DNA of 64,000 bases from Hyphomicrobium sp. GTDB taxonomy: Bacteria; Pseudomonadota; Alphaproteobacteria; Rhizobiales; Hyphomicrobiaceae. The notes beneath the pieces are model-generated. The model saw only the letters and a program-made list of their open reading frames with translations, was not told the DNA's origin and ran no database searches. A program made the translations under genes and the position numbers. The stretch's first letter is position 1. Each line of letters opens with the position of its first letter. Shown in pieces: positions 19,024 through 57,550 of the stretch. The stretch is from assembly GCF_019753045.1 (NCBI RefSeq), contig NZ_JAIELN010000020.1, positions 1-64,000 on the forward strand, written 5' to 3'.

Positions 19024-19277
19024 AGTTCCCCCGTCATCAGACTTAATGACGGGAACTTCGGCAGATATGGCGAAAAACAGCACGACGTACGCTCGCGCTC
19101 TCGCCGGTGGCGAAAACGCGATTATGCTTGACCAATAAAGGCCTGCTCAAACGTATGTTTGCTATCTAGATGTTCATGTCCCGCGCCAGCCCTGACGTTG
19201 CTCCCGATCGGTTGCACATCAGTCGCCACTCCGGGGTTACCGTTCCTAAGTGCGGCCCGCACCGAGGATGGACGACT

Positions 19278-19475
19278 TGTGGCGGCAGGTCTCCTGGCTC
19301 GCGGCTCGAACGTCCCATCTCCTGCCTTCCCAAATTCCCAAAGAGGGGAATGTCAGTGGCTTCGTGGAGAGGACTTGCCGCTTACAGTTGCGGGCGCAGC
19401 CACGGCATCGATGTTTCCATCTCACCGTGTTCCCTCTTAGCTCGCGTTGGCGTAGGCCAACGAAAGCACCGTCAC
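19278..19475 (-). ncRNA. Cobalamin (AdoCbl) riboswitch
   Basis: On the minus strand this leader carries the hallmark elements in order: GGTGC near its 5' end (about 19470), AGGGAACACGGTGAG, CCCGCAACTGTAAGCGG, GCCACTG, GGGAAGGC and the B12 box GAGCCAGGAGACCTGCC (19284-19300). It ends about 250 bp before the BtuB-like ATG. By family knowledge, adenosylcobalamin binding lowers expression of the downstream receptor operon. Plus-strand ORFs across it are chance readings. Confidence 0.95.
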
Positions 19476-19635
19476 ACTCGTAATCTGCATATTGTTTGCG
19501 CTTCAGTCAAAAGAAATCGTCGCGATGGACGACTGCCGATGAAACCAATTCGTCGGATCTCGTTTTAGCCAGGCTTAAGTTAGCGCTCGACATCGCCAGG
19601 CAATCGACCGGACCACCACGGCCCTACGGCGACAC

Positions 19636-55367: not shown

Positions 55368-56372
55368 TCAATTCTGCTTGGTCGTAATCTGATCGTAGAC
55401 GCCGCCATCGGCAAAGTGCGTTTTCTGGACCGTTGCCCAAGGACCGAGTTTGTCTTCTACCGAGAAGGTTTTGATGGCCGGCAGGTTCGCTTCCTTCAGC
55501 ACGGCTTCGTTGCGCGGCCGAAAATGATGCTTGGCTATTATTCTCTGCGCCGCGTCAGAATAAAGGAAATCGAGATAGGCCTTGGCGACATCCGCTGTCT
55601 TGCGTTTCGCGACGACGGTATCGACAATCGCGATTGGCGGCGCCGCCTCGACGCTGAGCGAGGGATAAACGACGTCGAAGTTCTGCCCATCGACCTCGGC
55701 CTTGATGAGAGCGGCTTCGTTCTCAAACGTCACGAGAACGTCGCCGATGGCGCGCTGTGTAAAGCTTGTCGTGGCACCGCGTCCGCCGCCGTCGAATACC
55801 GGAACGTTGGCGAAAAGCTTGGCAACGAAATCTCGCGCCTTTTCGTCTGAACCGAGCTTGTCGACTGCATAGCCCCAAGCCGCGAGATAGGTATAGCGTC
55901 CGTTCCCTGAGGTCTTCGGATTGGGAATTACGACTGACGTGCCGGACTTCACCAGATCATCCCAATCGGCGATTCCCTTGGGATTGCCTTTGCGGACGAG
56001 AAAGACCGTGGTGGTCGTGTAGGGTGCGGCGCCGTTGGGGAATTTCGTACGCCAGTCGTTCGCAATAACGCCTTTGCTCACGAGGAAATCGAGGTCCGTC
56101 GGCTGATTGAGCGTGACGACATCGGCCTCGAGGCCTTCGGCGACGGCTTGCGCCTGCTTTGTCGATCCGCCGTGCGCTTGCTTGACTCCAATGTCGCTTC
56201 CCGTCGACTTCTTCCAGCTCGCAACGAATGCCGGATTGATTTCCTTGTAGAGTTCACGCGAGACGTCATACGAAGCATTGAGAATGCTCGATTGCGCGAA
56301 CGCTCCGGGCGATACCGCCATTAGAAGAGCCGTCGCCAAACCAAACCGCGATGTCGTCCGCCCGATCGTCAT
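55368..56372 (-). CDS. sbp: Sulfate ABC transporter periplasmic binding protein
   Basis: 334 residues with a signal peptide ending in GAFAQ. Sbp/CysP features: ILNASYDVSRELYKEINPAF, KQAHGGSTKQAQAVAEGLEA, DVVTLNQPTDLDFL, KNPKTSGNGRYTYLAAWGYA (seen as NPKTSGNGRYTYLAAWG) and DVLVTFENEAALI. It captures sulfate or thiosulfate; the permease and ATPase genes are not in the window, at least not downstream. AGGAT lies before ATG 56372. Upstream are a 75-residue protein and a Met/Cys-rich leader ORF. Confidence 0.93.
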   Translation of the reverse strand: MTIGRTTSRFGLATALLMAVSPGAFAQSSILNASYDVSRELYKEINPAFVASWKKSTGSDIGVKQAHGGSTKQAQAVAEGLEADVVTLNQPTDLDFLVSKGVIANDWRTKFPNGAAPYTTTTVFLVRKGNPKGIADWDDLVKSGTSVVIPNPKTSGNGRYTYLAAWGYAVDKLGSDEKARDFVAKLFANVPVFDGGGRGATTSFTQRAIGDVLVTFENEAALIKAEVDGQNFDVVYPSLSVEAAPPIAIVDTVVAKRKTADVAKAYLDFLYSDAAQRIIAKHHFRPRNEAVLKEANLPAIKTFSVEDKLGPWATVQKTHFADGGVYDQITTKQN

Positions 56373-56485
56373 ATGCAGATCCTTTTTATGTACCGAGTTC
56401 TTTGACTGGGTGTTGTTGGGCACGAAGAACTGAGAAGACATCGCGTGCTTTGTCAGCATCGCGACGCCGTCTTGGTAATGAAAGA

Positions 56486-56516: not shown

Positions 56517-56765
56517 AAGTAACCCGATCGCAGAGTGTGGGCGAGCAGGTCCAGGGAGGAAGGAAGCGCCGACAAGCGTGCTAGCCTGCGCTTTAGAAGT
56601 CAGTCGATGGTCCGATCGCCGCGAACGCGGGAACGGGGTCGAGGTCCCAGTCGCGGTTCACCACTAACGTCAGGTGTCGCGACGGGGCCGATGTGAAGGG
56701 TCTCGCCAAATCATTCACCTGCTGTGCCTCAACCGCCGGCTGGCTAGATGTGTTGTTGCTTCGGC

Positions 56766-56993
56766 TCATAGGGCGAACGCCTCCGCGACGCGGCCCGAGG
56801 CGCGGCGACGACGCCGGCTTACCGAATGAGCGATCGCTGCGCGTTCCGCGAGAAGCGGATTTGCGAAGCGGCGCCCTTCGAGCGCGCTGTATTCGTTAAG
56901 TGCCGCGTGGAAGAGATACTCGTGTTCCCCTTCTTCACGGATAATAAGTCCTGCTTGGTCGTCGCCGACCTCGATGACGTAAGATTTAGACAT
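56766..56993 (-). CDS. Small hypothetical protein upstream of sbp
   Basis: 75 residues starting MSKSYVIEVGDDQAGLIIRE, a small alpha/beta part with a helix ALNEYSALEGRRFANPLLAE and a basic, Arg-rich end. No family recognised. It lies between the Met/Cys-rich leader ORF and the sulfate-binding protein gene on the same strand, 393 bp upstream of the latter. A role in sulfur uptake is suggested only by position. Confidence 0.6.
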   Translation of the reverse strand: MSKSYVIEVGDDQAGLIIREEGEHEYLFHAALNEYSALEGRRFANPLLAERAAIAHSVSRRRRRASGRVAEAFAL

Positions 56994-57074
56994 GTCTTTG
57001 CTCTGCCGGCGGTCGCCAGCGTCCTCTTAAGTGCGATTGTTCGATTGAAATGGCTCAGTCCGGGCTGCGTGATC

Positions 57075-57152
57075 TCAACAGCAGCCGGGCATACACATGC
57101 AGCCCATCATCATCGCGCGAGAGGCATTAGAGCGAGGGTCTAGGTTTTTCAT
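57075..57152 (-). CDS. Candidate Met/Cys-rich leader peptide (25 residues)
   Basis: A short ORF with an excellent ribosome site (GGAG six bases before ATG 57152). It ends in MMMGCMCMPGCC and then TGA, so nine of the last twelve codons are Met or Cys. That makes it look like a leader peptide that senses charged tRNA-Cys or tRNA-Met. The RNA around its end has two alternative pairings: GGGCTGC (coding, 57099-57105) or GGCTGC (57081-57086) can each pair with GCAGCC downstream (57062-57068). It lies upstream of the sulfate-binding protein gene. Function is inferred; it could also bind metal. Confidence 0.5.
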   Translation of the reverse strand: MKNLDPRSNASRAMMMGCMCMPGCC

Positions 57153-57550
57153 AGCGGTCTCCATTGCGGAGCCCACGAGCACTTCGTAGGGCTTAGCGTT
57201 TGATGACGCGGCGCAAGTCGCTTTCGAAATCACCGCGGCCGGCACAGCAGCGTGCCGACAGACGCATGAAAGCCTTGATCGAGGCTTCGGGTCAAATAAC
57301 AAGAACTTCGATGCTTATGAGGTCAGGCGCCAAACGTTGCCCCGCCGGGCGAGGCCGCTATAAACGCCGAACTACGTTCATTTGATCGGACACGGTGCGA
57401 GGATCGCCATCTTTTCCCGCTACTGGCCGGATATCTGGGGGTTTTCGGGCAATGCCATGCACCGGCGTGGCAATTTCCCACATACCGATCCGATGCTACA
57501 CCTCGTCAGGGTCGGCGCACGAATTCAGCAGGGGAAGGGGGGCCTGTAGT
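57153..57550. other. Intergenic stretch between leader ORF and ugd
   Basis: About 400 bp with divergent promoters presumably for the leader ORF (minus) and the UDP-glucose dehydrogenase gene (plus). No other gene I can support. Confidence 0.4.

Follow-up and report, generated by a model that had tools for sequence, protein, structure and literature searches.

A candidate two-input leader for sulfur acquisition in Alphaproteobacteria: a SAM-II-type aptamer upstream of a Cys-tailed short ORF

The 25-codon leader ORF located upstream of sbp in a Hyphomicrobium sp. genome is genuine, beyond chance, and belongs to a type of composite leader present in many Alphaproteobacteria. This composite probably serves sulfur acquisition as a 5' leader with two inputs, in which a SAM-II-type aptamer would gate the translation of an ORF sensing Cys-tRNA. 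As a rule, a riboswitch and a leader peptide are found as separate devices. In this element, they are apparently joined, and a metabolite aptamer appears to control the translation of an amino-acid sensing ORF in dozens of genera. The copy described below lies in a 64,000-nt stretch of DNA that we refer to as the window (table 1). An earlier note on this DNA had proposed, by analogy to amino-acid leader peptides, that ribosome stalling at the Cys or Met codons of the ORF decides downstream expression. This interpretation is partly supported: its central idea holds, and it is incomplete in that it overlooked the aptamer, the hairpins, and the Shine-Dalgarno (SD)-covering helix at 57159-57237.

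Table 1. Features of the leader region and its downstream genes in the window, with one additional riboswitch
Feature	Position	Strand	Remarks
SAM-II-type pseudoknot aptamer	57192..57237	minus	Stretch CGCGGUGAUUUCGAAAGCGACUUGCGCCGCGUCAUCAAACGCUAAG (57237-57192); likeness to SAM-II, weak Rfam SAM_alpha match
Aptamer P1	57237-57233 paired with 57211-57207	minus	
Aptamer L1	57232-57227	minus	UGAUUU
Aptamer P2	57217-57212 paired with 57198-57192	minus	Bulged U 57195, equivalent of SAM-II U44
P3 hairpin	57172..57191	minus	CCCUACGAAGUGCUCGUGGG; 6/6 pairs changed on both sides (93 sequences)
P4 helix	57159..57171	minus	CUCC 57171-57168 pairs with ORF Shine-Dalgarno GGAG 57162-57159
25-codon leader ORF	57075..57152	minus	Peptide MKNLDPRSNASRAMMMGCMCMPGCC, then stop
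SD and hairpin before the 75-aa gene	57005..57026	minus	SD GAGG 57026-57023; hairpin 57020-57005, ending 11 nt before the gene start
Conserved 75-aa protein gene	56766..56993	minus	Nearest and most frequent target
58 aa ORF	56593-56769	minus	Overlaps the 75-aa gene
sbp, sulfate-binding protein	55368..56459	minus	TIGR00971, 401 bits; start perhaps at 56372
Cobalamin riboswitch, elsewhere in the window	19267-19488	minus	107.7 bits

A GGAG ribosome site precedes the AUG of the leader ORF at 57152, and, as the earlier note had described, nine of the last twelve residues of the encoded peptide are Met or Cys. The peptide is identical in a near relative, Hyphomicrobium facile DSM 1565 (locus L246). 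Used as the sole query, it gave three convincing matches in 99 genomes, the window's own included; matches are this few because the body of the peptide is not conserved. Within the genus, every upstream region contains both the element and a short ORF. Among the 20 members counted, the ORF bodies differ and the tails are rich in Cys, for example, MSCCCCCC, CCCGC, and MRCCPCCC. The genus members G002 and G017 have neither the element nor the 75-aa gene. The conservation check that the earlier note had put forward was run, and both the Cys tail and the ribosome site proved to be conserved in relatives.

A covariance model built from a 21-sequence alignment identified the element in 45 of 103 genomes of the family and 66 of 347 genomes of the order. 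A class-wide survey with a second model (R2), in which 264 genera were sampled, gave matches in 86 of 387 genomes and in 52 of those genera. From these surveys, we took 26 of the 27 family rows outside the genus, 54 of the 61 order rows outside the family, and 80 of the 113 class rows, the class rows left out being already included, weaker, or close relatives. The resulting 180 copies comprise 100 at order level and 80 at class level; some class-level loci belong to the same organisms as R2 training sequences, so the class-level set is not fully independent, and counts across all copies are not independent because the copies are related by descent. One genome (G761) contains six copies, five of them clustered on contig C116, and five of the six have Cys-tailed peptides that are mutually unrelated.

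The ORF of each copy was defined by a rule blind to Cys: it opens at whichever SD-led start codon lies closest to where the model match ends, and it counts as short when it encodes 45 residues or fewer. At order level, 94 of 100 copies have such a start and 90 of the ORFs are short; all 90 contain Cys, 87 of them in the last eight codons. At class level, a start was found in 71 of 80 copies, with 42 short ORFs, of which 33 contain Cys, 32 in the last eight codons. Pooled, 132 of the 180 copies have a short SD-led ORF, 123 of these with Cys. In 119 of the 132, Cys falls among the last eight codons, compared with 43 in the +1 and 9 in the +2 shifted frame, which upholds the previous claim of a Cys tail above chance. 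The 132 ORFs encode 129 distinct peptides, 116 with Cys in the last eight codons, and in 55 of the short ORFs the last Cys is the final residue. An SD-led start is absent from the modelled place in 15 of the 180 copies. Cys is absent from nine short ORFs (L393, L398, L402, L414, L422, L423, L432, L435, and L445), several of which look like misplaced starts before a main gene. The short ORFs therefore combine conserved cognate Cys codons, an unconserved peptide body, and an SD, the combination by which a leader peptide is recognized.

The Cys codons of the leader ORFs are also unusual in kind. UGU accounts for 238 of 389 of them. In the long downstream ORFs at these loci (putative genes of 250 codons or more), it accounts for 181 of 755 Cys codons, and in 25 long ORFs from the window for 19 of 90. 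Where waiting for the charged tRNA is the signal, a rarer codon would be expected.

Met is likewise enriched in the leader ORFs, at 4.1% of in-frame residues versus 0.8% and 0.7% in the shifted frames, and genes for methionine uptake are among the targets. Both observations would suit a leader in which the Met codons, and not the Cys codons, do the sensing. However, in the last eight residues of the short ORFs Cys reaches 31% and Met 6.8%, and many ORFs have no internal Met. On this composition we rejected Met as the main sensing residue and regard a methionine leader as extremely improbable. The idea of a Cys/Met leader thus stands for its Cys part, with a conserved tail on an unconserved body in front of sulfur genes, and Met is secondary.

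The abundance of Cys and the presence of some Met in the window peptide would also agree with a functional Cys-rich peptide, either a metal-binding product, which was the other reading of the earlier note, or a nascent-chain sensor of copper or another metal. Peptide length argues against it. Nineteen peptides have 12 residues or fewer, 16 of them with Cys (MTCCCP is among the shortest), and some functional-looking versions have five to eight residues. A tunnel-bound sensor or a metal site would not fit into those of six residues, such as MTNRLC, MTTRLC, MTRLRC, and MTTCCP. In addition, the spacing of the Cys residues is not conserved, and the neighbours are sulfur genes, not metal genes. We consider a role for the peptide itself very unlikely.

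Upstream of the ORF, the RNA element consists of an H-type pseudoknot with a bulged U, the P3 hairpin, and the P4 helix, whose sequence in the window is CUCC-GCAAU-GGAG. Among 93 sequences from the order and beyond, in an alignment fitted to the structure of the model and biased towards it, 96.6% of the cells are paired and 12 of 20 pairs are changed on both sides, against a shuffle mean of 7.3; the corresponding number of cells is 99 against a mean of 19.1. When the partners were slid as a control, these values dropped to 3–5 pairs and 7–17 cells. In the first alignment of 21 sequences, 98.0% of the cells are paired and five pairs are changed on both sides, P1 and P2 being unvarying. In the larger alignment, P1 and P2 are paired in 100% and 98.3% of the cells, with one pair each changed on both sides and the others invariant, so both rest on sequence conservation and likeness to SAM-II. 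The support from covariation comes mainly from P3 and from the helix over the ribosome site, in which 4/4 pairs are changed on both sides and 88.1% of the cells are paired.

In genus g45, the P2 strand GCUAAGGA leads directly into the ORF ribosome site at eight of eight loci (L156-L158 and L161-L165). The pseudoknot strand GCUAAG is continuous with that site (GCUAAGGAG; GGAA in L163), and this arrangement is the simplest kind of SD-hiding riboswitch. In the window, hiding the SD would fall to the 57171-57159 helix. As the g45 pseudoknot strand runs into the ribosome site, and the window helix would be its equivalent, gating of ORF translation would be the likeliest output of the aptamer. A motif resembling TCTTGTTATTTG, a candidate promoter or regulator site, was observed on the minus strand of the window at 57293-57304; in 15 of 20 genus members, such a motif lies 65–69 nt 5' of the aptamer.

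The element is a relative of SAM-II, with which it shares the H-type pseudoknot, P1, the UGAUUU loop, the CUUGC and GCUAA strands, and the bulged U. Copies associated with biosynthesis precede metY, metZ, metA, metX, and metF, as is the case for SAM-II. Unlike canonical SAM-II, it has no GGCC P2a helix, its aptamer is followed by P3 and the SD-covering helix, it often appears to gate a Cys ORF, and 48 of 180 copies have G in place of A47. A canonical SAM-II riboswitch is also found elsewhere in 38 of 41 genomes searched, the genome of the window contributing locus L070, whose GGCC P2a helix the element lacks. At the Rfam gathering score, no known RNA family matched the element, and no match to a motif named sul1 appeared in its Rfam scans. 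In a relaxed scan, SAM_alpha (RF00521) gave 10.6 bits for the window copy, which is below the gathering cut-off of 36 bits and leaves this copy outside the family on score, though relatives pass. The score was 23.8 bits (E 0.00086) for the relative L172; at the cut-off, 0/20 order-level loci were retained, and 3/20 class-level loci exceeded it at 36.8–38.0 bits. One of these three (L371) has the Cys ORF and metN downstream. The SAM-II group is apparently larger than the Rfam model finds.

In SAM-II, the pocket residues named in the available part of PMC3764141 are U10-U12, U20, U21, G22, C23, and G42-A47. Position 47 excepted, they are conserved in 80–88 of 88 sequences of the element: U20, U21, G22, C23, C43, U44, A45, and A46 in all 88, U10 and U11 in 87. 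The base G8, which belongs to a triple in the pocket, is conserved in 64 of the 88. At position 47, 45 of the sequences have A and 43 have G, as does the window (G57192). We infer that the element would bind SAM, and are less sure of this for the G47 subclass, the window included. The 48 copies of this subclass all have a Cys ORF, the 75-aa gene, or both, and none is on biosynthetic genes. According to the same excerpt, A47 contacts the amino and carboxyl groups of SAM (PMC3764141). Because the base holding the methionine end of SAM is lost, the ligand might have changed to another adenosyl sulfur compound, which together with the Cys codons would form a two-input logic gate on sulfur uptake; we mention this as a rather unlikely proposal.

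The genes next on the strand are the 75-residue gene and sbp, as previously listed, together with a 58 aa ORF overlapping the former. The focus of the earlier note on sbp is retained in part: sbp lies downstream in the window and is a probable further target of the leader, but the 75-aa gene is both nearer and more frequent. Profile searches placed it after 88 of the 100 copies at order level and 24 of the 80 at class level; in the tally of all 180 copies it follows 111, and no other follower is as frequent. Sbp is encoded near 22 of the 111. Among 103 genomes of the family, element and gene occur together in 43, singly in 2 and 2, and in 56 neither is present. Of 60 relatives, 26 gave a match to the protein at E <= 0.01, the weakest matches being doubtful. 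It has no Pfam or NCBIfam match above cut-off and no solved relative below E 0.5, and its AlphaFold2 model (pLDDT 90.5) consists of three strands, then two helices. The 75-aa family, which is without a curated family, has the sequence pattern YVIEVGDDQAG..RFHAA..LEGRRFA. Its position behind this leader points to it as a sulfur-starvation gene. Where the 75-aa gene is missing at order level (12 copies), the element precedes sbp in three copies, genes for taurine-type binding proteins in five, and methionine transporter genes in four. Downstream genes thus belong to the pathway of the putatively sensed amino acid, as in an attenuator, and in the window this gene is sbp. As a separate observation, one copy (L438, genome G810) is located directly before a gene resembling dimethylsulfoniopropionate demethylase (NF009133, 393.5 bits for a cut-off of 410).

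The Cys short ORF is unevenly distributed with respect to these genes. Among copies preceding the 75-aa gene, 100 of 111 have it, as do 18 of 26 preceding uptake genes (118/137 pooled), compared with 0/30 copies before biosynthetic genes, here metY, metZ, metA, metX, metF, cysG, cysH, and DUF2849, named partly by blastp. Three genomes (G481, G564, and G650) contain both an uptake or 75-aa copy and a biosynthetic one. Part of the contrast could reflect lineage, because most biosynthetic copies are from other orders. By a generic ORF rule, none of 30 canonical SAM-II loci has a short SD-led ORF, while the element has a Cys-tailed one behind it in 111 of the 180 copies. If the two-input reading holds, control of sulfur uptake, with the Cys ORF, would be separated from that of methionine and cysteine synthesis, without it.

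Between the ORF stop and the 75-aa start, the median distance is 83 nt. A hairpin between the SD and the start of the 75-aa gene, with conserved spacing, was detected at 41 of 86 loci versus 5 of 430 shuffles, and this SD hairpin was the sole conserved structure that RNAalifold found from the ORF stop to the gene. Terminator-like hairpins followed by a U-run occur between ORF and target at 14 of 90 loci, compared with 2 of 245 control stretches, and no intrinsic terminator was found there at any of the 20 genus loci. The 45 nt after the ORF stop contain 37% C and 24% G at 76 loci, C exceeding G in 65; this C-rich stretch would suit Rho, as weak evidence. The earlier note had also described two pairings at the stop codon that compete for the segment 57062-57068, one with 57099-57105 (7 bp, -13.5 kcal/mol) and one with 57081-57086 (6 bp, -11.0 kcal/mol). 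Both exist in the window. They are conserved in only 2 and 6 of 20 genus members, respectively, and as a switch they were rejected.

A riboswitch might act without any sensing by the ORF, the SD of the aptamer serving as a standby site for the downstream gene, with ORF translation incidental and the Cys codons irrelevant. There is a precedent in Sinorhizobium (S. meliloti), where the SAM-II-type element of metA controls an SD that drives translation starting ~74 nt downstream, according to the accessible sections of PMC9373788; this distance is comparable to the median found here, and the biosynthetic copies have no ORF. This explanation nevertheless does not account for the Cys in 119/132 ORF tails, for the UGU bias, or for the finding that only uptake and 75-aa copies have the Cys ORF; moreover, a conserved SD of its own lies before the 75-aa gene. 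We therefore hold it to be unlikely and favour the two-input leader.

In the two-input leader, plentiful SAM would let the aptamer and the SD-covering helix, a structure seen by covariation, keep the ORF untranslated. At low SAM the ORF would be translated, and with charged Cys-tRNA scarce the ribosome would stall at the terminal Cys codons, a step consistent with the codon pattern and its preference for the rarer UGU. The location of these codons at the extreme end of the ORF suggests that the waiting ribosome acts on sequence 3' of the stop codon. It might block premature termination or free the next start site, which would allow expression of the 75-aa gene and of the sulfur-uptake genes that follow. 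The terminator-like hairpins of some lineages are what a transcription attenuator would need; for the genus of the window, which is without them, our guess is Rho-dependent termination or translational control. Sulfur uptake would probably be switched on when SAM and cysteine are both short.

Each half of this leader has known counterparts. The principle of the SAM-II riboswitch is established (PMC1273637, PMC6061858, and PMC4239095, each as excerpted), and the targets of SAM_alpha given by Leyn et al. are metY, metA, metX, metW, hom, and metC, sulfate uptake being absent from the part available (PMC4239095). The S. meliloti riboswitch differs in having metA as target, and no Cys leader is described in the accessible sections of PMC9373788; likewise, the portion available of a paper on the S. 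meliloti small proteome (PMC10117765) does not mention such an ORF. Among leader peptides, uORFC-8-2, upstream of cysS in Rhodobacterales, is similar in being an alphaproteobacterial uORF with tandem Cys codons, for which attenuation on low Cys-tRNA was proposed (PMC8632094, in excerpt). It differs in that it is found only upstream of cysS, has its codons at positions 14-15, and is always accompanied by an intrinsic terminator, and no aptamer is described in that excerpt. The window leader falls outside this class, as its targets are the 75-aa gene and sbp and no terminator was found. In mycobacteria, polycysteine leaderless sORFs attenuate operons responding to cysteine (Canestrari 2020, cited in the available text of PMC9094748); these are leaderless and actinobacterial, and no SAM aptamer is mentioned in that text. 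Our searches, which covered an open-access library with few subscription journals, found no paper in which a SAM-II element and a Cys leader are combined. Judged from sequence, the leader described here would unite the working of a Cys leader peptide with that of a SAM-II riboswitch.
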